Shown piece by piece: positions 6,641 through 26,800 of a stretch of 64,000 bases of DNA. The notes beneath the pieces are model-generated. The model searched no databases, was not told the DNA's origin, and saw nothing but the letters and a program-made list of their open reading frames with translations. The stretch's first letter is position 1. Every line of letters starts with the position of its first letter. The DNA lies in NCBI GenBank assembly GCA_030748575.1, contig JASMLR010000006.1:62001-126000 (forward strand). Direction: 5' to 3'. Both the position numbers and the translations under genes were made by a program. This DNA comes from Phycisphaerales bacterium. Its GTDB lineage: Bacteria; Planctomycetota; Phycisphaerae; Phycisphaerales; SM1A02.

Positions 6641-6669
6641 ATCATACAGAAGGGTCAGTCGTGGGTCAG
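6641..6669 (-). promoter_or_regulatory. Predicted sigma-70-type promoter for sdhCAB
   Basis: On the minus strand CTGACC (6669-6664) is followed by a 17-nt spacer and TATGAT (6646-6641). A start near 6634 would give a leader of about 30 nt containing the AGGAGG ribosome-binding site of sdhC. The -35 box overlaps the stop region of the upstream phosphatase gene. Confidence 0.5.
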
Positions 6670-8324
6670 GGCGACGGACCGGCCCAGGCCAGAACACTCG
6701 CGACGGTTGTGTCGTCGGCAAGGGCGTCGCCCCCGGACCACCCGCGCACCGCAGCCAGAAGTTCAACGACGTCCTCGTCCACGGTCCGGGTCCGGGCCAA
6801 TACGGATTCGATGTTCGCCAAGCCGAACTGCTCGCCGGCGGCATCAGGCTGCTCCGGCACCCCATCGGTCATCAGCACAATGCGGTCCGACTCACCCAGT
6901 TGCACGACATTGGCCTGAAACTCGATCCCCTCGATGGCGCCCACGACCGGGGACGTGGCCGCATGGTGCATCTCCACACCGTCGCTCCGAACGTGCACCC
7001 AATATCCGTGACCTGCATCGACGTAGGTCAGCGACCCATCCGCGGCAAAGACGCCGACCCACAGCGTGAGAAACCGGTTGGATGCGCTTCTCGCCAGCAC
7101 AAAGTTGTTCAGGTCCTCGACCGCATCAGCGGGCGAAGCGTGCCGCGCCAGGGCCGCGTGCAGGTAAGCCTGCGCAGCAGCCATCAGAATGGCAGCCCCG
7201 ACCCCCTTCCCGGATACGTCGCCCAGAATGACGGCAATGCGGCCATGCTCCAACTGCACAACATCAAAGAGATCACCCGAAGCCACCCGCCCGGGATGAA
7301 ACTCAACCGCGTACTGGAGGCCGGCGCCCGCCTGCCGCTTCAGCGGGATCATGAGTTGCTGCGCTTCGCGAGCAGCGGCCATCTCTTCGTCGAGTTCCCG
7401 CTGCCTCGCCTGCATCGAGCGTCGTCGCAGGTTAGCCATGGCCAGCCCTGCAAGCTTGCCCAGCGCCTCACAGAATCCGGCTGCATCCGGCGCCACGGCA
7501 CTTTCGCTTGCGCGAGCGTCCAGGTACAGGCAGGCCGCAACCTGATCGTCGACGAGAATCGGGCAGCACATGGCAGAGTGAATCTCAAGCTCTGCGATGC
7601 TCTGGCCCCAATCGGCATTGCTCTGCTGCGCGGCCAGCGTCACCATCTCCCCGGCCGATGCGCGAATGACCAGAGACCGGCTGAACTGTGAGGCCTCCTG
7701 GCCCTCACGCGCCCAGGTCCCGAGCACTTCCACGGCTTCCTGATCGCCGGCGATGCGAACCAACGCCGCGCGACCGTAGCCCGTGCCCACAACCACCGAC
7801 TCCAGCAGCGACTGGGCTAACTCACGCTCGGTGCCTGCGTCGTTGATCCGTCCTGCGCAGTCAATAATCAGTTGAAGGCGATGATGCGCGAGCTTGCCTG
7901 TCGCGGCCGGATCAATCCGCTTGACTTCCGCCGCGTCCTCGATCACCTCGGGCCCCCCGGTCATCGCGACGGTCGTCGGTGTCCACGTCCCCACCTGAAG
8001 CACCCAGGGCCCAACACCAATGCGGTCGCCCGGCGCCAGCGGCATGGGCTGGGTCTGTTCGATCCGCACATCATTCAGCCACGTGCCATTGGGCCCGCCC
8101 AGGTCGCTGAGCAGCCACCGACCTCCGACGTGCTTCACTTCCGCGTGGCGGCGAGACATCGTGGCGTCAACCAGGTGCACCTCGCAGGCACTGCCGCGAC
8201 CGATGACGGCTCCGGCCCGCGTCACCTCCACGGGAGGTACGGCCGGACCGCGCACCGCCACCAACCGAAGCATCCCTGCGGCCTGTTCTGTCTCCACGTG
8301 CGTGTAGCCTCGCTCAGCACTCAC
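6666..8324 (-). CDS. FHA-GAF-SpoIIE/PP2C serine/threonine phosphatase
   Basis: Signalling phosphatase of the RsbU/SpoIIE class, 552 residues, cytoplasmic. An N-terminal FHA domain (about 35-110) has the phosphothreonine-binding pattern GRGSACEVHL, SRRHAEV, DLGGPNGTWLND. A GAF-like sensory domain follows (about 140-300), then a coiled segment with REAQQLMIPL. The C-terminal PP2C_SpoIIE domain (about 335-550) keeps the metal-binding residues in SGDLFDV, GDVSGKGVGAA, TDGVPE and DDTTV. Such proteins usually dephosphorylate anti-anti-sigma factors in partner-switching circuits; no such partner is nearby. The start is GTG 8324, with TAGCAT 6 nt upstream and no Shine-Dalgarno. It is separated from the GTPase-associated locus only by tRNA-Arg. 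Confidence 0.9.
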   Translation of the reverse strand: MSAERGYTHVETEQAAGMLRLVAVRGPAVPPVEVTRAGAVIGRGSACEVHLVDATMSRRHAEVKHVGGRWLLSDLGGPNGTWLNDVRIEQTQPMPLAPGDRIGVGPWVLQVGTWTPTTVAMTGGPEVIEDAAEVKRIDPAATGKLAHHRLQLIIDCAGRINDAGTERELAQSLLESVVVGTGYGRAALVRIAGDQEAVEVLGTWAREGQEASQFSRSLVIRASAGEMVTLAAQQSNADWGQSIAELEIHSAMCCPILVDDQVAACLYLDARASESAVAPDAAGFCEALGKLAGLAMANLRRRSMQARQRELDEEMAAAREAQQLMIPLKRQAGAGLQYAVEFHPGRVASGDLFDVVQLEHGRIAVILGDVSGKGVGAAILMAAAQAYLHAALARHASPADAVEDLNNFVLARSASNRFLTLWVGVFAADGSLTYVDAGHGYWVHVRSDGVEMHHAATSPVVGAIEGIEFQANVVQLGESDRIVLMTDGVPEQPDAAGEQFGLANIESVLARTRTVDEDVVELLAAVRGWSGGDALADDTTVASVLAWAGPSP

Positions 8325-8519: not shown

Positions 8520-9236
8520 ATGCCCTCCATCGCCTGCCCCTGGTGCGGACACGACACCGACGCCGCTGATGCCCGGTTCATCGCCGCCTCGCCCACGCTC
8601 GCTGGCGACCCGGTCCTCGGAGCAGCCGCCCAACTGCGATTCCTCCCATGCAACTTCGACGCGGGCGCCCGGCCTCTTGACCCGGCGGGCGCGCCTTCCA
8701 CACGCCCAGCGTGTCCCGCATGCAGAGTGGAGTGGCCAACCCCCATCTGGTACGCGCGGGGCTATGGCATCGTGCAGGTTCCGGACTGCCAGACCGCGCA
8801 GGCTCTGCTGACCGGCGCGTCCACTGCCCTGCACCAGGCAGGCTGGAACCTGCATGACATCACCCCCGAAGGTCTTCGGTCTGCGCTCTCGGCTGACGCC
8901 GCCTCGCCTCGCATCGGCTCGCTCCAACTGGAACGGGCCGACGAGCGGTGGGTCATCCTGCTCGCAGTGGATCCTCCTGCCATCGGCCCCGATGTCGTCG
9001 TTGCCGACGAACCGGAACCTCCGGCTTCGGGCGTCGTCCGAGTCGTCCGTTCCTCGACAAGCGACCGGCCGATTGCGGCTCCGGCGGATCTGCAAGACGC
9101 CATGCCGATCACCGCGGGCGACTTTGAACATCCTGCCGGGTGGCCCCCGCGGTGCGTCCGTGTGGCTGCCGACGGCCGCGGCGATGCGATGACCCTGCTG
9201 CTGGCAGCGACCGCAAGGACCTCGTCCGATGCATGA
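8520..9236 (+). CDS. Zinc-ribbon protein of the GTPase-associated locus, function unknown
   Basis: 238 residues, first gene of the six-gene plus-strand operon. The N-terminus begins MPSIACPWCGHDT; this CPWC knuckle and a second one, CPACRVEW (about residues 65-72), could together bind one zinc. The rest is a predicted alpha/beta region with no signal peptide or membrane helix, and I recognise no further domain. The start at 8520 is preferred over ATG 8496 because the zinc knuckle begins directly after it and TAGACT lies 7 nt upstream. The 3' end overlaps the next gene by 8 bp, so the two are probably translationally coupled. Its role may be as a scaffold or sensor within the system; this is inference from context only. 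Confidence 0.65.
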   Translation: MPSIACPWCGHDTDAADARFIAASPTLAGDPVLGAAAQLRFLPCNFDAGARPLDPAGAPSTRPACPACRVEWPTPIWYARGYGIVQVPDCQTAQALLTGASTALHQAGWNLHDITPEGLRSALSADAASPRIGSLQLERADERWVILLAVDPPAIGPDVVVADEPEPPASGVVRVVRSSTSDRPIAAPADLQDAMPITAGDFEHPAGWPPRCVRVAADGRGDAMTLLLAATARTSSDA

Positions 9237-10059
9237 ACTCGTTCACACCTGGGCCGGAATGGGCGCCGAGGGCGGGTTCCAGACCGTCCGGCGATCGCCC
9301 GGCCTCAGTGACGCGGCGGCGGAAGCATTGATTGATCGCTCAGGCATGGTCGTCTCGGATCCACCGGCCAGACCGATTCTGGCCTTCCGCATGCTCCCCC
9401 TCGACGGAACGCCCACGGCCGTGCTGACGCGGATCGTGCAAACGCCCGGCCCCACCCCCGCCAGACCCTGCAGGCTCGCGCACCACCTGGTTCTCAACGC
9501 ACATGAGCGGCCCGAGTGCGGCCCGGCAGCGCTGCTCACGGGGGGATGGTTGCCCGACGTGTGGCAAGACGACTGGGAAGCCACCGCCGTGCCAGAACAC
9601 GTCGCGGCGACACCACCGGGCGAGCTGGACCCGGCCTGGTCTGAGTTCGTGCTTCGCCGCGCCGAAGGTGCTGCCTGCACCACGCTGATCACCCCGGAAG
9701 GGACGGCCCCTGAAGCGTGCCTTGCTGCGATGTTTGCCTCCTTCCCCGCGGAGGACCGCTGGCGTGTGACGTTTCTGTGTAACGGCTTCCAATTGCCGGA
9801 TGCGGCGCTGCTTCGACTGGTGTCGGACGGCTCCGTCGCGGCCGCCCGCCTGGCCCATGCCGGCGAGGGGCTGACCGTCCATCTGACCGAAGAGCCACCC
9901 CGGCCCGAGCCCATCACGCCGCCGCGCCGCGAGCAGCCGGACATCCCGCTGCGGCTGGAGGCAAGAGAAGGCCCACCCATCCTGGTGCTGGTGCTGGCCG
10001 TCCTCACGCTGATCGCCCTGGCGGTGGCAGCATGGACGCTTGGAGTGTTCGGGCCATGA
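9229..10059 (+). CDS. GAP1 N-terminal type 2-like protein with C-terminal membrane anchor
   Basis: 276 residues. The N-terminal region resembles, from memory, the GTPase-associated protein 1 N-terminal type 2 domain. HELVHTWAGMGAEGGFQTV followed by SPGL (about residues 2-26) matches the family's start, in which an initial Tyr/Thr-Ser stretch is followed by GFQ and SPGL. LAHHLVLNAHE (83-93) matches the conserved FAH-hLL segment, and WRVTFLCNGFQLPD (178-191) the later FTTYLQ-like strand. A single C-terminal TM helix (about 250-272) would anchor it with the domain in the cytoplasm. Overlaps with its neighbours (8 bp upstream, ATGA downstream) show tight coupling. The molecular function of this domain family is unknown to me; the family assignment needs a profile search. 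Confidence 0.62.
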   Translation: MHELVHTWAGMGAEGGFQTVRRSPGLSDAAAEALIDRSGMVVSDPPARPILAFRMLPLDGTPTAVLTRIVQTPGPTPARPCRLAHHLVLNAHERPECGPAALLTGGWLPDVWQDDWEATAVPEHVAATPPGELDPAWSEFVLRRAEGAACTTLITPEGTAPEACLAAMFASFPAEDRWRVTFLCNGFQLPDAALLRLVSDGSVAAARLAHAGEGLTVHLTEEPPRPEPITPPRREQPDIPLRLEAREGPPILVLVLAVLTLIALAVAAWTLGVFGP

Positions 10060-12896
10060 CCATCGCCCAGAATCTGCAGCGGGCGATCGCAACGCCCCAC
10101 GAAGATGCCGCCGACCTGTGCGCGGCGGCGAACCAGACCGTCTCCAGGTGCGCCGACTGGCTGGAGCGGGGCCTCATCTTTGAAGCCGCCGCGCTCAATG
10201 CCGATTCGGGAAACCTCATTGGCCTGCTGATCCGATTGAAGACCGGGTCCACGCCGGTCCCCGATGGGCTGGCGATTCCGCCGACTCAGATGCTGGACCG
10301 GCTCGCCCGCCTTCCCGCCATCGCGGCCGACCACCGCGGCGAGTTTGCAGCCTGGATCACGGCCAACCTGACCGACGCGCCCCTGCTGGACCGACTCGCC
10401 GCCATCAACCGGCTGCACGCCCTGGATCCCACCAACCCGTCATGGCGATCCAGCCATGAACGGCTGGAGCACGGCGCCGTCGCCGTCTGGAACGACGAAG
10501 TCGATCGATGCATCGAAGAAGGCGACGCAACCTCACTCGCAGCGGCCGGAAGGCAGGCCGACGCGATGACGCTGCTGACCCCGGGCGGCCAGCGTCTCCT
10601 GCACAAGATTGATCGCGCCCAGGCGGCGACCGCCAGGGAAGCTGCCGCGGCGGAACTGGAGGCGGTGGCCGACCGTCTCCATGTGGCATGGGCCGCCATG
10701 GACTTCACGGCAGCGCGGCGATTGCTTGCCGAGTGGAAGGCCCTCGATCAGCGAACCAACGGCGGCAACGAGGCCGACGTACGCGGCGTCGCGGCATGGC
10801 TGCATGCGGAAACCGAGAAGCGACGTCGAGCGGCGCATGTCCAGGACCTGATCGCCGACGTGGTGCGTGCGCTTGACGAATTGGAGCCGCTCGGCGTGGT
10901 CGAGCAGCGGTACGCCGCACTTCTGGGCGTGGCCGACCACGTCCCAGCCGCCGTTGAAGCCCGCGTGTCGCACCGAATTGCGGAAGGCAGGCGGCAGCGA
11001 GGTCGGCGGTACGTGGTTTCGATCCTCAGCATTGTCGCCATCGCATGCCTCATCACGACGGCGCTGGTCGTCCGGCAGCGGAGCATGGAGCGAGCGCGGA
11101 CCATCGAACAACTGGCCGGATGCATGGCGGCCAATCTGGAAGAGGGGCGGCTGCGAGAGGCCGTGGACTGCTGGAACGAGGCGGCGCGGGCCGCGGTCAT
11201 CGATGCGCCGCAGATTGCGGCCAAGCGAGCGGCCATTGTTCGGGCCACGCTGGATCTGCGGGACGCCGAGCAGCGGGCGGTGCAGCAGGTCGTCGAGATC
11301 CAGGCCGCCGTCGGCGAGCCAGACCGCTCGCTCGAGGAGATTGACGCGCTGGTCAAACGGCTCAATGAACTTTCCGCGGATGTGCCCCGCGAGGCGCTGG
11401 ATGTCCATGCCGCCGCCCTTGCAGAGGCGACGTCGGTGCGAGGCACGATGATCGAAACGCTCCGCGCCGGCATCAAAGCTGAACTGACCCGAATTGAGCA
11501 GTTGGTGCCCGAGCGGCATGTGCCCGTGGCGGATCTCCGGGCATGGCGAACCCGGCGTTCCACACTCGCCGGCGCGTTGGACGCGTTGGCAGCCATCGAT
11601 CTCAAGGGCGGGCTTGCAGGCACCGACCTGAGCCTGCGGATCACCCGGCTGGACGCGAGGCTGAACGACTTGCTCGAATCGGTTCAGAGCCGTATCGATC
11701 AACTTGAAGAGGTCGAGACCGTCGCCGCAGAACTGCGACGCATCCCCATCAGCGAAGCAACCTGGATTGCGGCCTGGACGCGGCTGCTGGAACTCAACCC
11801 GGCACTGGTGCATGACATCGACCCGAATGCGTGGACCGAGGCGAGCGAGGCCGGCCGCGCTGCTCAGGCCACTGCGCACTGGCGTGACCACGTGCTGCCG
11901 ATTGTCGAGCAGGCACGGCTGCTGAACCCTGATGGCCCGATCAGTGCTGGCGCTGCCGCGCGGGCCGGCACGACCCTTCGCGCGCACCTGGACCTGTACG
12001 ACCAGTACACCCCCTACCACGACATCGCCACGCATCTGGCCGAAGTCGCCTCGGCAATTCAGTCACAATCCCACCGGGGCGACCTTCGCCAGGCGATGTC
12101 GGATGCCGGGCTGCTTGAGCTCCACCGCGCACCGCACGCAACCGGCTACCGATACCTGCGATCCGAAAACGGCATGTGGCTCCGGGTCGACTCGACGACC
12201 GACCTCGGCTTGAAGCCCGCCGACCTGATCGCCATGTCGGGAGATGACATCGCCAACCTCTACGCGTCACCCGCCGTGGCACCCATGTCATCGGCCCTGC
12301 AGCGAGGGTTGGATGCCTGGGAGCAGCACGATGCGCCGAGCGACGCGGCCATCCTCAACCTGATCACCGTGCTGGAGTCTGGCGTTCAGGCAGATGAGCT
12401 GCTCAGGCTGGCGGTGCTGCGAGCGGTCTGGTCGGCCATGCTGGAGCAGGACGTTCCGATGTCCGACGAAGTCCGCCAAGCGGCAACCGCGTGGCTGGAG
12501 TCCGTCGAGCGAGAGGCGCCGGCCGCGGCGCAGGCGGACTGGCCTCGACTGGCGCAGTCCTCCGGCGAAGGCAACCAGGTTGTCGCCCGCAGGCAGGCGC
12601 GGTACTCCGCAGCCAACGCGCCCCAATCAGACATGATCGAGCGGCTCCTGACCACCGCGGGCCAGGGCGCCACGGCGCAGGCAAGCAAACGCGTCATTGC
12701 CGGCATCCTGATCCCAGAGCCCGGCGGACGCCTCGAGATCAAACTGGTGGAGGAAGCACTCGAGCAGAGCGAAGTGTTGGCGCACGATGGCCGGCAGTGG
12801 CGATGGGTTCCGCTTCCGCCGCTCCGTCATGGCGACGTTATCTCACCTCCCAAAGGCGTGCCCCTCGCGCCGACTATCATCTTCACCACACCATGA
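10056..12896 (+). CDS. Large helical one-TM protein of the GTPase-associated locus
   Basis: 946 residues, unrecognised. The sequence is Ala/Glu/Arg/Leu-rich and strongly helical, with several probable coiled coils (for example about 150-310 and 380-560). A single hydrophobic span, YVVSILSIVAIACLITTALV (about 317-336), is flanked by Arg-rich segments, so the N-terminal third is probably cytoplasmic and the long C-terminal part extracytoplasmic. The last 120 residues are less helical and may form a small beta domain. ATG 10056 overlaps the upstream stop (ATGA), and the 3' end overlaps the ExbB-like gene in the same way. Size and topology suggest a periplasm-spanning or scaffold component that works with the adjacent ExbB/ExbD-like channel; this is inference. 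Confidence 0.6.
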   Translation: MTIAQNLQRAIATPHEDAADLCAAANQTVSRCADWLERGLIFEAAALNADSGNLIGLLIRLKTGSTPVPDGLAIPPTQMLDRLARLPAIAADHRGEFAAWITANLTDAPLLDRLAAINRLHALDPTNPSWRSSHERLEHGAVAVWNDEVDRCIEEGDATSLAAAGRQADAMTLLTPGGQRLLHKIDRAQAATAREAAAAELEAVADRLHVAWAAMDFTAARRLLAEWKALDQRTNGGNEADVRGVAAWLHAETEKRRRAAHVQDLIADVVRALDELEPLGVVEQRYAALLGVADHVPAAVEARVSHRIAEGRRQRGRRYVVSILSIVAIACLITTALVVRQRSMERARTIEQLAGCMAANLEEGRLREAVDCWNEAARAAVIDAPQIAAKRAAIVRATLDLRDAEQRAVQQVVEIQAAVGEPDRSLEEIDALVKRLNELSADVPREALDVHAAALAEATSVRGTMIETLRAGIKAELTRIEQLVPERHVPVADLRAWRTRRSTLAGALDALAAIDLKGGLAGTDLSLRITRLDARLNDLLESVQSRIDQLEEVETVAAELRRIPISEATWIAAWTRLLELNPALVHDIDPNAWTEASEAGRAAQATAHWRDHVLPIVEQARLLNPDGPISAGAAARAGTTLRAHLDLYDQYTPYHDIATHLAEVASAIQSQSHRGDLRQAMSDAGLLELHRAPHATGYRYLRSENGMWLRVDSTTDLGLKPADLIAMSGDDIANLYASPAVAPMSSALQRGLDAWEQHDAPSDAAILNLITVLESGVQADELLRLAVLRAVWSAMLEQDVPMSDEVRQAATAWLESVEREAPAAAQADWPRLAQSSGEGNQVVARRQARYSAANAPQSDMIERLLTTAGQGATAQASKRVIAGILIPEPGGRLEIKLVEEALEQSEVLAHDGRQWRWVPLPPLRHGDVISPPKGVPLAPTIIFTTP

Positions 12897-13786
12897 ACAC
12901 CGAACCGCCGACAGGAACGCCCGCGTGGAATCAGACGCCCACTGAGGTTCTCTCGTGGGCCAGAAGTGACCCCGAACGCAAGTTCGGCCTGCCATCGGGC
13001 CGCTTCACGACGCCATCGGCGACGGCGTCCTTCCTCGTCGGGCTCATCCTGATGGGCGTGATCTACGGCGGCATCTGGACCGTGCGGGAAACAGCGTGGG
13101 GCAGCATGATCTGGGAATACCTGACGGGGTTCTCAGGCATTCCGATCCCGATCATGCTGCTGACCTGCTGGTCGACCGCGATCATCCTCCTCAAGGCGGG
13201 CAAAATCAGCACGCAGCGAAGGGCGCTTCGACTGCGGTTCATGCCGGCGGAACCCGGCTTCGTCCTCTCGGTTGCAACGGTGGACCGCGTGATTGATGCC
13301 ATTGAAGGCGGAGTCGACGAACCGCATCGGTTCGTGCTGCTGGACCGCGTCCTGACAGCGCTCAAGTCCATTCGAAACATCGGCCGCATCGCAGACATCG
13401 ACGAGATGCTCAACTCCGCCGCCGAGGCGGACGAAGACTCGATGGACAGTGGCTACACGATCCTGCGGGGATTCATCTGGGCCATTCCTGTGCTCGGCTT
13501 CATCGGGACCATCATCGGCCTCACCGAAGCGATCGCCGGCTTCGGTGGTGTGCTGGACGCCGGAGAGTCAACCGTCGACATCCTGGCACTCAAGCTGACT
13601 GAAGTCATTGCAGGCCTCAAGACGGCCTTTGTCACCACGGGCGAAGGACTCGTCGCCGCCCTCTTGTTGCACCTGGCGGCCACATTCACCAGAAGAGGCG
13701 ACGAGCGGCTGTTGGACGACTGCCGTCAGTACGCCGCCCGCAACATCACGGCCCACGTCCGCATCAGTTCGGCCGAGTCGGCATGA
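12893..13786 (+). CDS. ExbB/TolQ/MotA-family proton-channel subunit
   Basis: 297 residues with about four membrane helices (43-62, 82-101, 192-214, 240-264) and a cytoplasmic segment between the second and third. The third helix contains IPVLGFIGTIIGL and the fourth EVIAGLKTAFVTTGEGLVAAL. This is the TolQ/ExbB/MotA hallmark (PLLGLLGTVxGM, then ALxTTAxGL), with the conserved polar residues that line the ion path. Members form pentamers around an ExbD/TolR/MotB dimer and use the ion gradient to drive work across the envelope. ATG 12893 overlaps the upstream stop, and the next gene overlaps by 4 bp. It encodes neither the TonB nor the Tol-Pal system, because neither is nearby. The two following genes supply the partner subunits. 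Confidence 0.85.
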   Translation: MNTEPPTGTPAWNQTPTEVLSWARSDPERKFGLPSGRFTTPSATASFLVGLILMGVIYGGIWTVRETAWGSMIWEYLTGFSGIPIPIMLLTCWSTAIILLKAGKISTQRRALRLRFMPAEPGFVLSVATVDRVIDAIEGGVDEPHRFVLLDRVLTALKSIRNIGRIADIDEMLNSAAEADEDSMDSGYTILRGFIWAIPVLGFIGTIIGLTEAIAGFGGVLDAGESTVDILALKLTEVIAGLKTAFVTTGEGLVAALLLHLAATFTRRGDERLLDDCRQYAARNITAHVRISSAESA

Positions 13787-14571
13787 GCCGCCGGCGGCGA
13801 GCCAGTTCACCGATCAGTTTCTTTGCGTTTCAGGACGTCATGATCGGCACGATCGGTGTCGTGATCATCGTCACCGTGCTGCTGCTCATCCAGATCGGAC
13901 ACAGGACCACCCTCGCCATGGCCGCCGCTGCCGATGCCCCGCAGGAGACGGTCGTCCAGTCCCTGACCCAGCGGCTCGCCGCGCTGCAAGCACTCCCGGA
14001 CCCCGCCACTACTGCGGCCGAACTTGAACGCCTGCTGCTTGCCTCGGATCTTGAGGACCTCCGCAACCGACGTCGATCGAGCCTCCTGGCCGAACTCACG
14101 CAGGCCCTCGAAGACGACGCCCGCGAGGAGGCATACTCCAGCGACGAGCTTGAGGCGCAGCGGCTCAGCATCCGAGCCGAACTGCTCCGGGAGGAGATCG
14201 AGCAGGAGGAGCGGCGGCGAGAGATCTCCTATCTCATTGCCGACGAAGACAGCCGGGCCGTCGTTGCCGAACTCTCGGCCGCCCGTGTGGTCCTCTCCAG
14301 TACGGCGGCGAGCGATGCGCCCACCGCCCTGTCCTCAACGGACGCCGAAGTTCTGGCTCGCGCCACGCTCGAGGCCTGGGCCGCGCAGGCCGGCGGCGCA
14401 CCCTCTCACCTGCTGCTCAGCCTCAAACCATCCGGCATCGCGGTATGGAACGCCATCGAACGGCTGCGGTCGGCCGATCCACGCTTCGCCAACCTGCAGG
14501 TCGGCGTCGACCTCATCCCCGAAGACGCCTCGACGACGGCCCAGTACCGCGCCGGAGGTACGGCGCCGTGA
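13783..14571 (+). CDS. ExbD/TolR-like channel partner, first copy
   Basis: 262 residues. After a basic cytoplasmic start (MSRRRRASSP) comes SFFAFQDVMIGTIGVVIIV, a single TM helix (about 19-38) with Asp18 at its cytoplasmic end, the position of the proton-carrying Asp in ExbD/TolR/MotB. A long acidic coiled coil follows (about 70-175). The C-terminal 80 residues (HLLLSLKPSGIAVWNAI, RFANLQVGVDLIPED) resemble the small alpha/beta periplasmic fold of TolR. It overlaps both neighbours by 4 bp. Pairing with the upstream ExbB-like protein is inferred from family logic and gene order. Confidence 0.72.
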   Translation: MSRRRRASSPISFFAFQDVMIGTIGVVIIVTVLLLIQIGHRTTLAMAAAADAPQETVVQSLTQRLAALQALPDPATTAAELERLLLASDLEDLRNRRRSSLLAELTQALEDDAREEAYSSDELEAQRLSIRAELLREEIEQEERRREISYLIADEDSRAVVAELSAARVVLSSTAASDAPTALSSTDAEVLARATLEAWAAQAGGAPSHLLLSLKPSGIAVWNAIERLRSADPRFANLQVGVDLIPEDASTTAQYRAGGTAP

Positions 14572-15485
14572 GACGCGTCGACGACTCCAATTCCAGCCTT
14601 GATCTCCTGCTCGACACGGTCTGCAACCTGTTCGGCATGATCATCTTCATCGCGGTCCTTGCGGCCGTACTCGCGGGCGCCCGTGGGGCGGCGCAGGTCG
14701 ACCAGGCCGAGGATGCTGCAGGCCACTCCGAGGAGATCGCTTCACTCCAGGCCGAGATTGAGGCGCTGCTCGACCGGGAAGACGACTCCCTACGCGTGCA
14801 GATTGACGAAAGCCGCAGACAGTTGGAGGACATGCAAGCGCTCGGGCTCCAACTTGAGACGGCCCTCGCCGAAGCGAGACACATTCTGGGGTGGGAAGCA
14901 GTCGTGCCCGACATCGAAGCGCTTGAGTTGGAGGTCGACGCGCTTGATCGCCGCCTCAAGGACATCAGAGACCTCAAGGACGTCACGCTTCGCACGCCGC
15001 GGCGGAGAGGACTCCACGGCCGCGTTCCGGTTCAGGTGGTGCTCACGGCCGGCCGGATGTACATGATCAACGACTGGTCGGCCTGGCGGCACACGACGGA
15101 TCCGACCTCGCAGCGGTGCATGTTCTGGATGACGTGGAACGATCAGGCCGTCGACGGCGACCAGTCGACCGCGGATGACCACGGCTCATGCGAGTACCGA
15201 ACCGGCTCGCTGCACATCGACCGGTCGATTCGCCTGCGACCGGGCGGAGGATTCGACCCCGCCGACCCGGCCGGGGCTGCCGAACTCTCGGACGTGCTGG
15301 CCGCGCTGGTGCCCGGTCGACACGTCGTGTCGTTTCGGGTCACCCCCGACTCCTTTGACCGCTTTCACGCGGCGCGACGCCTGGCCATCGAGCAGGGCCT
15401 TGAGTACGACGTCACACCCATGTCACCGCTGACTGAAGGCCGGTACGAAGACAGCATCAGACAGGGCACGACGACCGGGCAGTGA
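14568..15485 (+). CDS. ExbD/TolR-like channel partner, second copy
   Basis: 305 residues from GTG 14568, which overlaps the preceding stop (GTGA). Near the N-terminus SSLDLLLDTVCNLFGMIIFI gives one TM helix (about 17-37) with Asp12/Asp16 at its start, again the MotB/ExbD pattern. A coiled coil follows (about 50-130). The periplasmic domain contains VPVQVVLTAGRMYMIN and ELSDVLAALVPGRHVVSFRV. It is clearly different from the first copy, which suggests a heterodimer inside one ExbB-like pentamer. It is the last gene of the operon; 14 bp separate it from the stop of the convergent vWA gene, with no visible terminator. Confidence 0.7.
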   Translation: MRRVDDSNSSLDLLLDTVCNLFGMIIFIAVLAAVLAGARGAAQVDQAEDAAGHSEEIASLQAEIEALLDREDDSLRVQIDESRRQLEDMQALGLQLETALAEARHILGWEAVVPDIEALELEVDALDRRLKDIRDLKDVTLRTPRRRGLHGRVPVQVVLTAGRMYMINDWSAWRHTTDPTSQRCMFWMTWNDQAVDGDQSTADDHGSCEYRTGSLHIDRSIRLRPGGGFDPADPAGAAELSDVLAALVPGRHVVSFRVTPDSFDRFHAARRLAIEQGLEYDVTPMSPLTEGRYEDSIRQGTTTGQ

Positions 15486-15499
15486 GCCCCGCGGCGGCG

Positions 15500-17932
15500 T
15501 CAGCGCACCAACCTCAATTGGCCACCGTGGTCGGACGAAATCTGGTCAAGAAAGGCTTCGTCCACCTCAGCGCCCAGGCCGATCGCGTGGATGCGGGTGC
15601 GCGGCCGGCCGGCATTGAGTTGCAGAAGCCGTGACGCCACGCTGGCCGAGTCATTCAACTTGCCGTCGGTCATGAAGAAGATGACATCCGGCCGAGGATC
15701 GAGATTGCGAAACGCCCACTCAAACGCTTCGGATGGATCGGTTCCCCCGTCGGCCCCGACGGCGGCGAGTCTGGCGCCGACGCGGCGGACAGAACTGGCG
15801 GCGGCACGCGCCCAGGTCGGTTGCAACCGGCGAAGCTCATGATTGAAGGGCAACACCGCAAACCTGGTGCCCGCCGGCAGGGCCGCGAGGGACTGCTCCA
15901 GTTCAGCCTGAAGCCGAACCAGTCCGCCGCTGGGTCCCATGGAGCCCGAGACGTCAATCACGTAGCAGATGTACCTCCCCTCGGCCTGCAGCCCGAAGAA
16001 GTCCACGGTTCGCGCATCGGTTCCCCCGCCGGGCTTCGCCCGAATGACGTCGCTGCTCGCCTCGGCCGACGGTTGATCAAGCGCGGCCGTGAGTACGTGC
16101 GGATCGACCGGGCGGTAGATGCATCCGCCCAGATGCAGCGCGTCCCCTTCGCGTGACCATGGGACTTCCACGGGAACCACGGCGGCGCCCGGCCTGTAGT
16201 CATGTCCGGCGGCGAGCCCGAGCGGCCGGGAGTTCCCGAAGGCCGCCGCGCCCCGCGGGTGATCGACCTCGACCACCTCCGGCCGGAACCCGACGTCATA
16301 GGACGCGGCCACCGATACCCCCGCTGCGCCGTCCCACGCGAGGACGACCTCCATCGTGCGGCCATCCGGGTCAATACCGATGATGCGCGTATCGGACCCG
16401 CTGGGCAGGAAGTCTCGAGCCGGACTCGGCCGCGACACAAGTTCCCACGTGCCGCGCACCTCCCGGTGCCACGGCGGCGTCGCTTCGTCGGGCGATGCCT
16501 CAGCAGGCCGGTCGCCGAGCGACGCGGCCTCTCGAAAGGCCTTGAGAATGGCGGCGGGGTCAGGCGCTTCATCCTGACGCGGCGCGGCAGCCTGGGAGTC
16601 CGGGGATTCCGGGGGTTCCGGGGCGCCCGCCGGCCGCTGGCCTGTTGGCTCGGGGCGTGCTGGGGCCGCTTCCGACTCGGTCTCGCCGGGCGTCGAGCTT
16701 TCGGCGCCGCGGCCAGGTGGCGCTGCGTCGCCGCGTCGCTGCTGCGGCGGGCCGGCCTGCGGTTCACCGGGCGTCACGCCTTCGGCGCCGCCGCCATGCT
16801 CCACCGCCGCGCCTTCGGCGGCTTCGGCGGTCGCCGCCCCGCCCTGCTTGCGTGTCGTCGCCGCTTGATCCGGCGATGCCTCCGGGCGACGCGTGCTTCG
16901 CTGCTCGCCCGACGCCTCGCCCTCGCCCGAGCCGCCAGCAGCGCCGGCCCCGCCGCGGAGCCGGCCGTCGCCGGTCGCGGCCCCGCTGCCGCCGCCACCG
17001 CCGCCTGCTTTCTCGGTGTCGCCGTCCTCGGCATCGGCGTCCTCGCCTGGCGACGCATCGGGCCGAACGGCCCAGGCCGCCGCGGCGCTCGACTGCGCGT
17101 CGGGGGCGGCGGTCGAAGGCGCGAGCCCCAGCAGCGATCGCTCCGATGCACCCGGACCGTCGCCGGCGGTGTCGGGCGACGCTGTATCGGCCCCCCCAGC
17201 GTCGCGTGATGCGCCCGAAATCCGGGCGGACTCCGGCGTGGTCAGTACCTCAAGGCCGCCGCCTGCCGGAGAGCCGCGGCCGGCGCCCGAGCTTCCGCCA
17301 CCTCGCGGCGCGGCGGCGCCCTGCCCCGCCTGTCCCTGCCCCGATTGTCCCTGGCCCGACTGTCCCTGGCCCGACTGTCCCTGACCCGATTGTCCCTGGC
17401 CCGCCTGTCCCTGGCCCGACTGTCCCTCGCCCCCCGGGCTGCACTGGCCGCCCTGACCCTGCCCGCCGGGGTTCTGCCCCCCGGGCCGCGAAGCGGCCCC
17501 TGCCGAAGACTGCCCCGAAGCGGCCCCTGCCGAAGACTGCCCCGAAGCGGCCCCACCCGAAGACTGCCCCTGACTGCCCTGCCCTGCAGCGGCCCCACCC
17601 GAAGACTGGCCCTGCCCCGAAGCGGCCCCCGCCGAGGGCTGGCCCTGAGCCGCCGACCCGCCTCCGCCCGGTCGCTGCGTAGCGGCCCCGCCCGCCCGGG
17701 GGCCCTGGCCCGCGCGGGGACGTCCCGCCCCTGACGCGGGTCCGGCCTGCCGGGTGCTGCGGGCCTGCGGAGCGGTCACCGCCGCCGCCTGCGTGTCCCA
17801 CCCGCTGGAGGCCACCGCGGTGGAGGCGGGCTGCGGCTGCGGGCCCGCCACCTTGTCCTCCGCCGGCGTGGTGGCGCGGCATGAGGCCAGGGCCAGCAGC
17901 GTCAATACGATCGCGCAGTCCCGCTGCGTCAT
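15500..17932 (-). CDS. vWA-domain lipoprotein with Gly/Gln/Ser/Pro low-complexity region
   Basis: 810 residues. The N-terminus MTQRDCAIVLTLLALASC carries a good lipobox (LASC, Cys18), so it is probably lipidated in the envelope. Residues about 25-500 are low-complexity (QGQSG pentapeptides, GAASGQSSA nonapeptides, then acidic and Pro/Ala-rich stretches) and likely disordered. A beta-rich segment follows (about 520-630). The C-terminal von Willebrand A domain (about 652-810) keeps a complete MIDAS: DVSGS (Asp660, Ser662, Ser664), Thr731 in GGTDP and Asp756 in FMTDG. The start overlaps the stop of the upstream GAP1-N1-like gene by 4 bp. vWA proteins often accompany ATPase or GTPase machines as ligand-binding partners. 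It is the last gene of the minus-strand operon. Confidence 0.85.
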   Translation of the reverse strand: MTQRDCAIVLTLLALASCRATTPAEDKVAGPQPQPASTAVASSGWDTQAAAVTAPQARSTRQAGPASGAGRPRAGQGPRAGGAATQRPGGGGSAAQGQPSAGAASGQGQSSGGAAAGQGSQGQSSGGAASGQSSAGAASGQSSAGAASRPGGQNPGGQGQGGQCSPGGEGQSGQGQAGQGQSGQGQSGQGQSGQGQSGQGQAGQGAAAPRGGGSSGAGRGSPAGGGLEVLTTPESARISGASRDAGGADTASPDTAGDGPGASERSLLGLAPSTAAPDAQSSAAAAWAVRPDASPGEDADAEDGDTEKAGGGGGGSGAATGDGRLRGGAGAAGGSGEGEASGEQRSTRRPEASPDQAATTRKQGGAATAEAAEGAAVEHGGGAEGVTPGEPQAGPPQQRRGDAAPPGRGAESSTPGETESEAAPARPEPTGQRPAGAPEPPESPDSQAAAPRQDEAPDPAAILKAFREAASLGDRPAEASPDEATPPWHREVRGTWELVSRPSPARDFLPSGSDTRIIGIDPDGRTMEVVLAWDGAAGVSVAASYDVGFRPEVVEVDHPRGAAAFGNSRPLGLAAGHDYRPGAAVVPVEVPWSREGDALHLGGCIYRPVDPHVLTAALDQPSAEASSDVIRAKPGGGTDARTVDFFGLQAEGRYICYVIDVSGSMGPSGGLVRLQAELEQSLAALPAGTRFAVLPFNHELRRLQPTWARAAASSVRRVGARLAAVGADGGTDPSEAFEWAFRNLDPRPDVIFFMTDGKLNDSASVASRLLQLNAGRPRTRIHAIGLGAEVDEAFLDQISSDHGGQLRLVR
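17331..17435 (+). repeat. 15-bp tandem repeat, seven units, inside the vWA gene
   Basis: Seven consecutive 15-bp units of the form TGTCCCTGGCCCGAC (plus strand), mostly identical apart from one to four substitutions, keep the reading frame and encode the pentapeptide QGQSG on the minus strand. Such in-frame repeats can change copy number by slippage. Confidence 0.9.
17490..17570 (+). repeat. 27-bp tandem repeat, three units, inside the vWA gene
   Basis: Three adjacent 27-bp units starting GAAGCGGCCCC encode a nine-residue repeat (GQSSAGAAS on the minus strand). More diverged copies continue to about 17640. It is in frame and part of the same disordered region as the 15-bp repeat. Confidence 0.8.
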
Positions 17933-19920
17933 GGCCCAGCCCCTTCCTGATTCGCCGCCGCGTCAAGCGCTTTGATGGCCGCGTGAAGACTCCGCCGCTC
18001 CTCTGCAAAGTCCCAGTCATCGCTGAGCGCATCCGCCGGCCACGGGTCATACGCGTCAAGCATCATCTCGACCTGATCGAGCATGGCCCGCAGCCGGCCT
18101 TGCTCGGCCTGGAGCCTATCAATCTTAGTTTTCAGGTCGTGCTTGTGAGCATCCGTCACGCCCGGCGCGTCCCGCTCGCGTTCCAACACTTGCTGATCCG
18201 TCCTGCTGCGATCGAATCTCCGGCTGCCGGTGTCCTGAATCTGCGCCAGCAGTTCTGGCAGCATCTCAAGTTTGCGTTTCAGCTCGTGCGGCTTCGTCTC
18301 CCAGTACTCCTCACGCAGCTTCGTGACGATCTGGTCGACCGCTCGCAGGTCCTGACTCGCTTCGTTCAGGTGAGCCCGCCGCTCCTTCCGCCGCGCCTCA
18401 AACCCGCCCTGCCCTCGCGCCTGCTGAGCCCACTTCCGGCTGGCGTCTTCGGACGCCCAGGTGTCAAACGGAGCCGGCTGGCTGGCTCGAAGCAGGTCGC
18501 GCATGTCATTCAATACGCGGTCGGCGGTCTGAATGCTCCACAGTTCATGGACAATCTCTGGCATGCGGGCCGAGGCCGCCTCGATCAGATCGACCGAGTG
18601 GGCGTCACCAAGATCCCCCAACACCGCTTTGATCGACATGGTTGCTCGCAGTTCGTCCCGTTCGGGCCAGTCGTCCCCGGCCCGCGTCACAAGGGCCGCG
18701 AATAGGGCCTCCCGGAGCGACGCCATCGCCTCAGCCTGTCGTTGCGGGCGGGCGTCGGGATCCATCCAGGACGCGGCGCCGGGCTGCGGCGGCGGGGCAG
18801 CCTGATCCTCCGGTGGGATCGCGGGTCCATCCGATGACGCAGGTTCGCCGTCTGCGGCATCGGCCTGCCCCTCGGGGGGCTCTGGCGACGGTTCTGAAGG
18901 CGTGGCCGCGGGCGTTTGTGAGGACATATGCTTCGGCCCGTGCCGGTGGGGTGCAGACTGTGGTGATGCTTGCTGATCTGCGGGCGAGGGCGCCTCCTCC
19001 GGGCCGTGTGGTCCGGGGCCATCCAAGCCCGCTTCTTCGCCGCCGCGGTCCGCAGCCGGGATCGCCGCGGCGGGCGACGAGGCCCCAGGCAGCGACAGGA
19101 CGGCCACGAGAACGCAGGCGACCAGCAGCACCGCAGCCCCCCCCAGCCACCACATGCGGCGGGAGGGCGGCGTCTCCGCCACAGCCGGTGGCTGCGACGC
19201 AACCTCCGGCGGCGGACCGGCGCCCGGCGTGAGATTCGGAATGCTGTAGGAGGTGCTGCGGCCGTAGGCCTCCTGACTCACCGCATTCAGGTCCTGCACC
19301 GGCAGATTCATGACTGACGCCCCGGCGCCGAGCGTCGCAACATCCAGCGTCCGAATCGCCCGCCCCAATCCAAGCCCCCACGACAAGCGGGCCGCATCTG
19401 CGTCCGACGCCGCGGACAGCAGCGTCAGAACCGCGGCCTCCGACGCTTCGCTCGCATGCAGCAGGACAGGGCGGGGTGTGCTCACCATGAGCCCGCCCAG
19501 AATCCACGACGCGCGGGTGGCCTCCACGGGCACCGCACGCAGCGGCGGAACCGTGAGCGGCTGCCCACGCTGGAACGCGGGGCTCTGCCACACCTCCTGC
19601 GAAGGCAGCAGTACACGGAGCGTCATGCGAACCTGCGAGGTCCACTCGTCGACCGTCATCAGAAGCGTGCGAAACTGAATCGTGCTGCGTCCGGCATCAT
19701 CGGCGGGGCCTCCAACGCAGCGGGTCAAGGCGATGCGCCCCGTCCCCAGCGGCCTGCACAGCACGGCAAGTTCACGCTCAAGCCGCTCGGCCCGCCCGCC
19801 GCCAGGTTGGCCGATGTCGATGCGGCAGAGTTCCTCACGCTCCTGGCGGGTGCACCCCGCAGACGCAGCGAGTTCGCCATACCCGCGCGCGGAACCGACG
19901 AGGTGCGTATCAAACCGCAC
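17929..19920 (-). CDS. GAP1 N-terminal type 1-like protein, one TM, coiled-coil C-terminus
   Basis: 663 residues. The N-terminus MRFDTHLVGSARGYGELAAS, then LCRPLGTGRIALTRC, GGPADDAGRST and RTLLMTVDEW (about 1-93) resembles from memory the GTPase-associated protein 1 N-terminal type 1 domain, whose hallmark is an early G-x-x-x-GY-x-LLAAS strand followed by a tract where the protein is 'fit to print' as ...RT...G...GR...FxHxLhh. One TM helix lies at about 256-277. A Pro/Ala/Ser-rich linker follows, then a charged coiled coil (about 400-660). GTG 19920 is chosen because AAGGG stands 7 nt upstream; GTG 19938 would add six residues. It lies between the GTPase-protease gene and the vWA gene, overlapping the latter by 4 bp. 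Confidence 0.6.
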   Translation of the reverse strand: MRFDTHLVGSARGYGELAASAGCTRQEREELCRIDIGQPGGGRAERLERELAVLCRPLGTGRIALTRCVGGPADDAGRSTIQFRTLLMTVDEWTSQVRMTLRVLLPSQEVWQSPAFQRGQPLTVPPLRAVPVEATRASWILGGLMVSTPRPVLLHASEASEAAVLTLLSAASDADAARLSWGLGLGRAIRTLDVATLGAGASVMNLPVQDLNAVSQEAYGRSTSYSIPNLTPGAGPPPEVASQPPAVAETPPSRRMWWLGGAAVLLVACVLVAVLSLPGASSPAAAIPAADRGGEEAGLDGPGPHGPEEAPSPADQQASPQSAPHRHGPKHMSSQTPAATPSEPSPEPPEGQADAADGEPASSDGPAIPPEDQAAPPPQPGAASWMDPDARPQRQAEAMASLREALFAALVTRAGDDWPERDELRATMSIKAVLGDLGDAHSVDLIEAASARMPEIVHELWSIQTADRVLNDMRDLLRASQPAPFDTWASEDASRKWAQQARGQGGFEARRKERRAHLNEASQDLRAVDQIVTKLREEYWETKPHELKRKLEMLPELLAQIQDTGSRRFDRSRTDQQVLERERDAPGVTDAHKHDLKTKIDRLQAEQGRLRAMLDQVEMMLDAYDPWPADALSDDWDFAEERRSLHAAIKALDAAANQEGAGP

Positions 19921-19962
19921 AGGAGTGCCCTTCTGCACAGGCCGGCTTTCGGTGGCCGGCCA

Positions 19963-22293
19963 CTACTTGAACACCATCACGAGGAAAGCGGCGTCGGTGC
20001 CGCCTGCGTTACGCACCCTGGCGACGATCTTCTCGCCCGCGGCACTCGGCCAGAGACACTTGGCCCAAGCGTGGTCGTCGGCGCGGACGTCCGAGTCGAG
20101 CACGCGGCCCTGCCCGTCGAGCAGCCTCAGGTCCGCGTCGATGGCGGCGCGCGGGCTCACAACCACCAGAATCTCATCGGTGGTATCCCCCCCGAGCACG
20201 CGGGCAAGGTCAACGTCGGCATCATCGCCCGCCTGCAGCAGCAGCCGCTCGCAGCCAACCAGTTGCCACTGCTCGGCCACAACGGCCTCCAGAAGGTCAA
20301 CCTCCTCCCCCGTGAGTGGCCAGTCTTCCAGCGACGGACACTGATCGGCCAGGAATCCCGCACCCTGCGACTCGATCATCGTGGAGGGATCAAACGGCAC
20401 GCCTCCGGCGATGGCCGCGGGGATCTCTCTCGCGTCCACTGCAAAGTTCTGGGAGCCGCCTTCCATTCCAAAGCTCGACCCACGGACGCCCCGCGCGATG
20501 CCGCACACGCGTCCGTCCTCGCCAAAGGCAGGACCGCCGCTGTTACCGGGGTTGAGCGTGGCATCCGTTCCAATCATCCACCCTTCGTCGGGGTCGTCGT
20601 ACACCCGAGACACAGCCCCCTTCGTCAGGTTGAGTGGCTCGAACCCATTGGCACCTCCTCCTCCGGGATGACCGACGAACGCAATGTCACTTCCGGGGGC
20701 CAGCGGCCGGTCGGCAAGGTGCATCGGAACGATCGACGCGGCGGCAAACTGGTCCCGATGTCCGGTCACATCCACCCAGGCAAGGTCTGCGCCGCCAGGG
20801 TGCACGTGGAAGTCGCGTGGAGACACATCGATGGGCGACAGCGTTTCAGAGACGCCGCCCCCACTGCCCAACTCGAAGAAGCGAATGACGATCTGAAAGG
20901 CATCGCCCGACTCAATGACGTGTCTGTTGGTGACGACGAGCAACTGCGCCGCGTGCTCGATGAGCACACCGCTGCCGTGCCCGTGGTATCCGGCGGTGGC
21001 ATGCGGCGTCTGCGGAAGTGGGCAGGCCCCGAACCGGCACTGCGTCTCGATAAAAGGTGTGGCTCGGTGGCCGCGACGGAACACTTCTGCAAACCCACCT
21101 GGCAGCGGGCCTCCGGGGGATGAGCCACCGAGCCCGGTGGAGGCCTGAGCGTCCGCGGGCCGATCTGAGACACCTTCCGGGGCCGGGACCGCCGGCACAT
21201 CTGCGATCAGGTGGTCGACCGGGCCGCCCTCTGGAGCGTCCGCGGCAGACCCATCGGACCCACCCTCTTGAACCGCCTCTGGCTCTGGCGGCGGAGAACT
21301 GCTGCCCCACTGCGACGCCATCATGACCGACACGCCGACCACCACGATGGCCAGCATGGCTGCCGCGACCCAGAAGCCGGCCCACCGTCGCCGAACCTGC
21401 TTTGACTCCGCGGCTTCCGCTCTGGCCAGGTCCGCAGCCTGAGCCGCCCGCGCTTCGTCTGCCCGCCGGCCCGCATCAACATCCATCCTGCGGCCGACGT
21501 GCCGCATGCAGTACACCATCGTGTCAATCAACCCAGCCGGCTGGTGCCGCGTGCTCGGAACCGGCCGCCCGGCGGCATCCCGCCTGGTCCGCACGGCCGC
21601 TGTTGCGAACATCCGCATGCTGCCCCCGTAGCGAAGCAGGTTCGGCAGGTGCTTCTGCACAAAGCCGCGAGCGCCTCCCGCGGCGCGAATGAGCCCGATG
21701 TGGACGTCGCACTTGGTCAACGCCACCGCAATCGGAACGGACTGTCCTCCGGGCGAGCGGCGAATGCGGTCCACCGCCGCCACCATGCCGTAGTCGTCAT
21801 CCACGACCTCATCGAAGTCCCCGGCGTGAACGTTGCCCGGGTCGATCAGGACAATGACGGCGGCCGCATGATCGACATGGTCAACTAGGTCGAGCGCCTG
21901 CTCGTCCGTCGCTCCGTCGACAAACGCCCGGCGAAAGACCTCGCCGGGGTAATCGAGCATGACCATCGTCGCCGTCTTGTCCCGCCAACTCACTTCGACC
22001 CCACCGGCGAGCGACCCCACCGTCGCCGCAGGCCACAAGCCATCCTTGAGCTGCGCCACCATGTCCATGCACAACGCGTGCAGCGGGCCGTCGGCTGCCC
22101 GCATGTGCACGCCGTCGCAGCCACGCCACGCCTGTTCATAGAGCCGCGCCAGGAAGACGGTTTTGCCGGCCTTTCTTCGGCCGAGAATGAGCACGCGGTC
22201 TCGAACGCCCTCCACCCGCGCATCCGGCCCCTCTGCTGAAGGGCGGGCGAGCGGTGCCGGCGGAGGTGGTGGTGGCGGCGGTCCCGGGGGCAT
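19963..22293 (-). CDS. TRAFAC-type GTPase fused through a TM helix to a trypsin-like serine protease
   Basis: 776 residues. A Pro-rich start precedes a GTPase domain (about 30-275): P-loop LGRRKAGKT (37-45), G3-like LDYPG (113-117) and G4 LTKCD (192-196), with Thr in place of the usual Asn. One TM helix lies at about 307-327, then a disordered acidic/Pro linker. The trypsin/HtrA-like protease domain (about 395-640) has a complete triad: His458 in VTNRHVIE, Asp503 in GGADLAW and Ser585 in NPGNSGGP. The last 100 residues form a probable beta domain (DADLRLLDGQG). Topology puts the GTPase inside and the protease outside. ATG 22293 follows GAGGAG by 5 nt. It lies 47 bp downstream of guaB on the same strand and heads the three-gene operon. 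Confidence 0.85.
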   Translation of the reverse strand: MPPGPPPPPPPPAPLARPSAEGPDARVEGVRDRVLILGRRKAGKTVFLARLYEQAWRGCDGVHMRAADGPLHALCMDMVAQLKDGLWPAATVGSLAGGVEVSWRDKTATMVMLDYPGEVFRRAFVDGATDEQALDLVDHVDHAAAVIVLIDPGNVHAGDFDEVVDDDYGMVAAVDRIRRSPGGQSVPIAVALTKCDVHIGLIRAAGGARGFVQKHLPNLLRYGGSMRMFATAAVRTRRDAAGRPVPSTRHQPAGLIDTMVYCMRHVGRRMDVDAGRRADEARAAQAADLARAEAAESKQVRRRWAGFWVAAAMLAIVVVGVSVMMASQWGSSSPPPEPEAVQEGGSDGSAADAPEGGPVDHLIADVPAVPAPEGVSDRPADAQASTGLGGSSPGGPLPGGFAEVFRRGHRATPFIETQCRFGACPLPQTPHATAGYHGHGSGVLIEHAAQLLVVTNRHVIESGDAFQIVIRFFELGSGGGVSETLSPIDVSPRDFHVHPGGADLAWVDVTGHRDQFAAASIVPMHLADRPLAPGSDIAFVGHPGGGGANGFEPLNLTKGAVSRVYDDPDEGWMIGTDATLNPGNSGGPAFGEDGRVCGIARGVRGSSFGMEGGSQNFAVDAREIPAAIAGGVPFDPSTMIESQGAGFLADQCPSLEDWPLTGEEVDLLEAVVAEQWQLVGCERLLLQAGDDADVDLARVLGGDTTDEILVVVSPRAAIDADLRLLDGQGRVLDSDVRADDHAWAKCLWPSAAGEKIVARVRNAGGTDAAFLVMVFK

Positions 22294-22340
22294 GCGCACT
22301 CCTCGGAAGGCGCCGCACTCAACGCGACGCCGCCCGAAGC

Positions 22341-23971: not shown

Positions 23972-25111
23972 GTGTCAACCGGTTCCGCACCCACTGTCCG
24001 GCTCGTCCACCATGCCGAGGGCACCGAGCCCGGCCAGGGCACCAAGTTGTTCCGAAAGTTTCTGAAGGCCTGCATCACCTACGAGGCCTCGGACCTTCAC
24101 ATCAAGGCCGACGGACCGCCCCGGATTCGGGTCCGCGGCGAACTCCGCCCCCTCGAAACCGACCACGTCACGCACAACGAAAGCCACCAGATTGCCAAGG
24201 ACGTGCTGGATGACTACCAGTACGATGTCTTTGCCACGCACGGGCAGATGGACATCGCCTACGACTACGACGACACCCACCGATTCCGCGTGAACATCTT
24301 CATGAGCCGTGGCAAGGTGTCCTATGCGTGCCGGCTCATCACTTCGGACATCAAACGGTTCGAAGATCTGCACGTCCCGCCGCTCCTGGGCGACGTCGCG
24401 CTGGCGGCGAACGGGCTGATTCTCTTTGCGGGCGTCACAGGCAGCGGCAAGAGCACGTCGATCGCTGCCATGCTGCAACACGTCAATGAGCGTCGTCGCT
24501 GCCATATCGTGACGGTTGAAGACCCGATCGAGTACATCTTCACCGAGGCAAAGGCGACGATCAATCAACGCGAGATCGGCATCGACTGCCTGTCATTCAA
24601 CGAAGCGCTGCGGGCACTGGTTCGCGAAGACCCCGACGTGGTGCTGGTCGGTGAGATGCGAGACAAAGAAACCTTCGAAGCGGCGATCCGGGCGGCAGAA
24701 ACCGGGCACCTCGTGTTCGGAACCATCCACGCGTCATCCGCGTGGCAGACCTTCGGCCGAATCTACGACCTGTTCGACGAGGGTGAAGTGCCCCAGATCC
24801 GAAAGCTCCTTGCATTCAACATGCGAGCCATCATCTACCAGAAGTTGCTCAAGACACTGCACCCGGACACCACACCGCGAATTCCAGCCCTCGAGATTCT
24901 GCTCGGCTCGCCTGCAGTCCAGAAGTACATTCTCGAAGGCCGGGAGGGCGAACTGCTCGACATCATCCGGCAGAGCCACGAGGAAGGCATGGTCGACTTC
25001 ACAACGGCGCTTGTCCAACTGGTCGAAGCCGAGTGGATTCACCACCGCGTCGCCATGGACGCCACTCCCAAACCCGAGGAACTCAAGATGCGTCTCAAGG
25101 GCATCTCATGA
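23972..25111 (+). CDS. pilT: PilT/PilU-type twitching motility ATPase
   Basis: Hexameric secretion-superfamily ATPase of the retraction type, cytoplasmic, 379 residues. Motifs: SDLHIKADGPPRIRVRG in the N-terminal domain, Walker A GVTGSGKST (about 154-162), Asp box VEDPIEY, Walker B DPDVVLVGEMRD and His box GTIHASSAWQTFGRIYDLF, matching PilT rather than PilB. The C-terminal AIRAAETGHLV motif is also present. GTG start with AAGGAG about 8 nt upstream. It overlaps the next, degenerate GspE-like gene by 4 bp. No pilin, PilC or PilQ gene lies in the window, so the machine it serves is not shown here. Confidence 0.85.
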   Translation: MSTGSAPTVRLVHHAEGTEPGQGTKLFRKFLKACITYEASDLHIKADGPPRIRVRGELRPLETDHVTHNESHQIAKDVLDDYQYDVFATHGQMDIAYDYDDTHRFRVNIFMSRGKVSYACRLITSDIKRFEDLHVPPLLGDVALAANGLILFAGVTGSGKSTSIAAMLQHVNERRRCHIVTVEDPIEYIFTEAKATINQREIGIDCLSFNEALRALVREDPDVVLVGEMRDKETFEAAIRAAETGHLVFGTIHASSAWQTFGRIYDLFDEGEVPQIRKLLAFNMRAIIYQKLLKTLHPDTTPRIPALEILLGSPAVQKYILEGREGELLDIIRQSHEEGMVDFTTALVQLVEAEWIHHRVAMDATPKPEELKMRLKGIS

Positions 25112-26790: not shown

Positions 26791-26800
26791 GTTCCATCAC

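Follow-up and report, generated by a model that had tools for sequence, protein, structure and literature searches.

A GAP1-N2/DO-GTPase gene set linked to an ExbB/ExbD-type module: a putative ion-powered envelope machine of Planctomycetota and relatives

Gene content of the locus

Contig JASMLR010000006.1 of the Phycisphaerales bacterium assembly GCA_030748575.1 was analysed over 64,000 nucleotides (positions 62,001 to 126,000, forward strand; hereafter the window). It contains a locus of nine genes in which GTPase and GAP1-type proteins stand beside a putative ion-driven motor. The genes are listed below in window coordinates.

8520..9236, plus strand: gene 1, zinc-ribbon (ZnR) protein of 238 residues with the CPWC/CPAC motifs retained, a ZnR-DO-GTPase remnant
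9229..10059, plus strand: gene 2 (GAPa), 276 residues, GAP1-N2 protein with a C-terminal transmembrane (TM) segment (Pfam PF20013, E 9.1e-7)
10056..12896, plus strand: gene 3 (HEL), 946 residues, bitopic helical protein, N-terminus inside, TM near 320, proposed force transducer
12893..13786, plus strand: gene 4, ExbB/MotA-type channel subunit, 297 residues, four hydrophobic segments (Pfam MotA_ExbB, 3.4e-12)
13783..14571, plus strand: gene 5, ExbD-like subunit 1 (ExbD1), 262 residues, FQD motif at the TM start
14568..15485, plus strand: gene 6, ExbD-like subunit 2 (ExbD2), 305 residues, LLLD..CN.FG motif with an invariant Asp16 at the TM start
15500..17932, minus strand: gene 7, vWA protein, 810 residues, lipoprotein-type signal (LASC), DVSGS motif of the metal-ion-dependent adhesion site (Pfam VWA_3, 6.3e-14)
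17929..19920 (or 19938), minus strand: gene 8 (GAPb), divergent GAP1-N2 protein, TM at about 259, helical periplasmic part
19963..22299 (in-frame ATG at 22293), minus strand: gene 9, DO-GTPase2-TM-trypsin fusion, 778 residues (DO-GTPase2 5.2e-8; Trypsin_2 5.9e-21)

An earlier reading of this DNA (the original prediction) had described six plus-strand and three minus-strand genes, and all of these open reading frames are present as claimed. The plus-strand genes overlap successively by 8, 4, 4, 4 and 4 bp, and 14 bp (15486-15499) separate the two converging operons. Since an identical gene set in the same order was found in dozens of further genomes, a chance arrangement is unlikely. Pfam also confirms the ExbB-like subunit, the GTPase-trypsin fusion and the vWA protein that had been announced among the products.

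Gene 1 has no P-loop, DxxGE or NKxD motif, its zinc ribbon is intact, and its good conservation within the genus is limited to residues 1-77. Full-length relatives in other genera consist of a zinc ribbon and a DO-GTPase2 domain (DO-GTPase 2.5e-9). Judged from these relatives, gene 1 is the remainder of a ZnR-DO-GTPase that lost its G domain in the window's lineage. Thus, the zinc ribbon of the original prediction stands, but the protein has to be read anew, as what is left of a second GTPase. The relatives carry a zinc-ribbon GTPase as well as a GTPase with a TM segment, and only the latter is intact in the window's lineage. In gene 9, both the GTPase motifs (GRRKAGKT, LDYPGE, TKCD) and the His/Asp/Ser triad of the trypsin domain are intact, and DO-GTPase2 (PF19993) scores above the cut-off in the window protein and in its L074 and L071 relatives (loci are numbered L). 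The trypsin fusion was rejected as a core feature of the system: it appears lineage-specific, because the other genus members have GTPases of 350 residues without trypsin. A second DO-GTPase2-TM-trypsin fusion occurs in another genus of the same family (L071:16741-18522), and in L198 trypsin is a separate gene. Genes of 460-510 codons occupy the trypsin position in L123, L124, L129 and L131, and their products show no significant trypsin likeness.

The original prediction assigned two proteins to the GAP1 family, one of type 2 and one of type 1. GAPa, with its TM at 251, does match GAP1-N2 above the cut-off, and its relatives in other genera combine GAP1-N2 (6.6e-22), GAP1-M (up to 2e-10) and a TM segment; the GAP1-M match is above the cut-off in the L076 relative, weak in the L074 one and missing from the window protein. 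For GAPb, type 1 has to be abandoned: Pfam finds GAP1-N1 in none of the proteins, and GAPb and its relatives match GAP1-N2 instead, weakly in the window (0.03) and above the cut-off in the L198 relative (1.6e-6). One GAPb homologue (L073:8613-11144) bears TSP3 repeats in its outer part. A tRNA-Pro called by ARAGORN inside GAPb (window 18774-18865, plus strand) is unsupported by Rfam and was set aside as probably spurious.

HEL was foreseen as a 946-residue helical protein with one TM segment. A single TM is indeed found at about 320, and the AlphaFold2 model (pLDDT 88.4) is nearly all helix, with an all-helical N-terminal part, a TM near 320-365, a long helical periplasmic part and a small C-terminal beta domain. 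Lys/Arg bias places the N-terminus inside in 73/73 homologues. The length of the bitopic helical protein in the system is 950-1030 residues. Comparison of HEL with PDB, by sequence and by structure, gave nothing convincing, and such a weak or absent match is not by itself a sign of a new fold.

For the channel subunit, MotA_ExbB (PF01618) is matched in the window protein and in 15/15 aligned members; four hydrophobic segments are present in 48 of 50. ExbD1 and ExbD2 are homologous to each other (hhalign probability 99.4), and both retain the Asp at the TM start. The AlphaFold2 model of ExbD1 (pLDDT 87.6) comprises a TM helix, a coiled coil and a bbb-a-b-a-b periplasmic domain. Set beside the canonical ExbD fold, this modelled domain would have the same strand-helix order. 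A structure search with the domain ranked RNase H/actin-like and ribosomal folds (Z about 6-8, the range of common arrangements).

Linkage and distribution

Both halves of the locus are linked in 25 loci, a count that includes some genomes fetched twice (L073 and L124 represent a single contig region). Most of these are convergent, and both halves lie on the same strand in L073, L124, L129, L131 and L198. The last of these, from another genus, is one run of nine genes spaced by -4 to +36 bp, in the order GTPase, GAP1, trypsin, ZnR-GTPase, GAP1, HEL, ExbB, ExbD, ExbD, and its vWA gene is convergent 18 bp away. Because L198 holds both halves as one tight operon, the two converging operons of the window belong together as one linked set. 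The original prediction had made its case depend on the linkage of the operons and on the family of the GAP1-like proteins; linkage is conserved, and both proteins stay within GAP1, as type 2.

More widely, the order ZnR-GTPase, GAP1-N2, one-TM HEL of about 1000 residues, (GYF), ExbB, ExbD1, ExbD2 recurs in Planctomycetota, Lentisphaerota and Verrucomicrobiota. HEL is upstream of ExbB in 52/57 loci, and two ExbD genes are downstream in 65/76. A scan of 84,980 genomes gave 402 ExbB relatives, the best 80 of which come from these three phyla, bar one Bacteroidia-labelled bin and some records that name no phylum. In the ExbB tree, the window falls in one of two main groups, and the other spans the three phyla. 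The carriers are some marine and freshwater planctomycetes and relatives.

Co-occurrence was counted in 392 evenly drawn Planctomycetota genomes, with statistics that ignore kinship and a threshold for close ExbB (E <= 1e-84) that was set once the gap separating a second, longer subfamily had been seen. Close ExbB occurs in 20 genomes, HEL in 26 and GAP1-N2 in 36. ExbB and HEL are together in 19 genomes, versus 1 and 7 singletons (p 1e-25), and HEL is accompanied by GAP1-N2 in 22 of its 26 genomes (p 9e-23).

In the window's genus, the locus lies between guaB and FHA-SpoIIE/sdh genes on every contig that extends far enough to show it, a synteny that rules out a mobile island there. The C-terminal part of the vWA protein is conserved within the genus. 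The GTPase gene is kept in 9/9 genus genomes; in one of these (G005), the GTPase half was found alone and the contig ends there. The gene for an FHA-GAF-SpoIIE phosphatase (window 6669-8324, minus strand), divergent from the locus across a tRNA-Arg gene, adjoins it throughout the genus and is possibly regulatory.

A putative GTPase-switched machine

The window set is firmly assigned, by domain matches, to the GAP1-N2 type of DO-GTPase (GTPase-centric) systems, because relatives in other genera match ZnR-DO-GTPase, GAP1-N2 and GAP1-M. The original prediction of a GTPase-centred system with GAP1-type domains, joined to an ExbB/ExbD/ExbD module, is thereby supported, with Pfam matches to DO-GTPase2, GAP1-N2 and MotA_ExbB. 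In their main text, Kaur et al. (2020; PMC7159879) predict that GAP1-N2-type systems are conflict systems. The systems described there share with ours DO-GTPase2, GAP1-N2, GAP1-M (here in relatives), a zinc ribbon on a GTPase, paired GTPases and TM anchors. Partners are also alike: planctomycete members have GYF-trypsin and GYF-TM proteins, and vWA genes occur in systems of other phyla. In contrast, the ExbB/ExbD/ExbD module and the HEL of about 1000 residues are not in that main text, where the terms ExbB, ExbD, TolQ, MotA and proton are absent. FNIII, a typical partner in GAP1-N2 systems, has no Pfam match in the nine window proteins; relatives were not fully scanned.

Literature searches for TRAFAC with ExbB, and for planctomycete ExbD with GTPase, gave nothing on point, and no prior description of an ExbB/ExbD/HEL module beside GAP1-N2/DO-GTPase genes was found in them or in the main text of Kaur et al. 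The original prediction had called the whole combination undescribed; as far as that main text goes, this holds for the module and fails for GAP1-N2 with trypsin in planctomycetes and for vWA in other phyla.

Comparative genomics lends good support to reading the locus as a machine, and we infer a single envelope-spanning assembly in which GTPase and GAP1 proteins would sense. It can be proposed that ExbB and the ExbD1-ExbD2 pair form an ion-driven motor. HEL, with its cytoplasmic helical part, one TM and long periplasmic stalk, would be a lever like TolA or TonB, moved across the periplasm by ion flow through ExbB-ExbD1-ExbD2. At the inner face, the GTPase/GAP1-N2 pairs may control when or where the motor engages, and the periplasmic trypsin domain (GTPase-fused in the window) and the vWA lipoprotein may serve outside as output or docking parts. 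On balance, the nine products probably make up one trans-envelope, ion-powered machine of the GAP1-N2/DO-GTPase class. Its purpose is only weakly indicated, with envelope surveillance or defence slightly favoured over housekeeping. The fuller proposal is about evenly poised: that of a new class in the Planctomycetes-Verrucomicrobia-Chlamydiae (PVC) group, in which DO-GTPase/GAP1-N2 proteins gate an ExbB-ExbD1-ExbD2 motor driving a transducer of about 1000 residues, with periplasmic proteolysis as one output.

The closest working analogies are TolQRA, Agl-Glt (PMC9120999) and Zorya (PMC11890865). With Tol-Pal and Ton (TolQRA, ExbBD-TonB), the set shares an ion-channel subunit, ExbD-type subunits and a bitopic helical periplasmic protein; it differs by a four-segment ExbB, two different ExbD-like proteins, a large cytoplasmic transducer part and GTPase control. 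Neither TolA, TolB nor Pal/OmpA is matched among the nine proteins (Pfam), and the tolQ model gives 15 bits against a cut-off of 221; on the features tested, this is not a Tol-Pal system. Like Zorya (PMC11890865), the set places a MotA/ExbB-type motor in what may be a defence setting and has a conserved Asp in the B subunit. However, its 297-residue ExbB has no cytoplasmic tail of ZorA length, ZorB has a peptidoglycan-binding domain, and here two ExbD-like subunits and GTPases are present. On the locus, PADLOC returns remote ZorA and RT-protease models only. With this weak ZorA likeness and no ZorB, ZorC, ZorD or ZorE among the nine, Zorya membership was ruled out.

Several findings weigh against the proposed motor and its place in the system. 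The ExbD-like proteins have no Pfam match, PF02472 included, ExbD profile comparison gives a weak match only, and no ExbD entry is among the matches listed by Foldseek/VIA for ExbD1; they are identified as ExbD by their TM motif, by the order of their topology and by their place in the operon. In L193-L196, ZnR-GTPase, GAP1 and HEL are found without ExbB/ExbD, so that the motor is a module and is not indispensable; HEL is even shortened in L194 and L195 to its cytoplasmic part and TM (first ~370 residues). Conversely, an ExbB subfamily of about 500-600 residues with two ExbD-like genes, and no HEL or GAP1 nearby (L080, L081, L082), recurs in some planctomycete families.

An ion-powered mechanical module conserved beside the GTPases would offer a testable physical mechanism for the GAP1-N2/DO-GTPase class, for which no experimental study was found in open-access literature searches. 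It would also tie this class to the motors of Tol, Ton, Zorya and gliding, and PVC bacteria, with their unusual envelope biology, would gain their own candidate machine for force transduction. Botrimarina colliarenosi Pla108 (L137), which is in culture, carries ZnR-GTPase, GAP1, HEL, a GYF protein, ExbB, ExbD1 and ExbD2.

Alternative explanations

The strongest alternative, tentative as it is, is a conflict system directed against phages or competitors, in which GTPase and GAP1 proteins sense an intruder and the motor and protease are the effectors. This is the role predicted in the main text of Kaur et al. for the GAP1-N2/DO-GTPase class, and the anti-phage system Zorya does use a MotAB-like motor (PMC11890865). 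The patchy presence of the system (20/392 genomes), the varying placement of trypsin between loci and the fast divergence of HEL (28-48% identity within the genus versus 67-78% for ExbB) also point this way. However, the retention of the GTPase gene throughout the genus and the syntenic position between guaB and sdh, outside any defence island, argue otherwise, and a nuclease, an NADase and a pore effector are all missing from the set. The remoteness of the PADLOC matches also counts against it.

Somewhat doubtful too is a housekeeping role in the envelope, for a machine of Tol-Pal or Ton type that is fitted to PVC envelopes and whose assembly is timed by GTPases. Vertical inheritance within the genus, the presence of a vWA lipoprotein and the combination of ExbB/ExbD/ExbD subunits with a bitopic helical protein resembling TolA are all consistent with it. 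However, the same genome has two further ExbB-type genes and three further ExbD genes. Moreover, a general need is not indicated, because about 95% of the sampled phylum genomes are without the system.

A GTPase-steered surface motor like the gliding machine of Myxococcus is improbable. In Agl-Glt, the MglA GTPase controls one MotA/TolQ-like subunit, AglR, and two MotB/TolR-like ones, AglQ and AglS (PMC9120999, PMC3169522), an arrangement of one plus two motor subunits under GTPase control that resembles ours, and some relatives of the locus have GYF domains. However, MglA is Ras-like and here a DO-GTPase is found; AglQ and AglS match Pfam ExbD and the window's ExbD-like proteins do not. No Glt homologue turned up, although the genome was not scanned with Glt or MglA profiles. 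To our knowledge, no motility is known for these mostly uncultured metagenome-assembled genomes.

Finally, that two unrelated operons converge by accident is very hard to sustain, even though each half also occurs alone (motor half in L075-L079, GTPase-GAPb half apart in L069 and L070), in view of the 25 linked loci and same-strand runs, and it is contradicted by the single operon of L198.

Elsewhere in the window, downstream of guaB, genes resembling those for PilT/GspE-type ATPases and partners lie at 23972-28462 (plus strand), as judged by a look at the sequence only.

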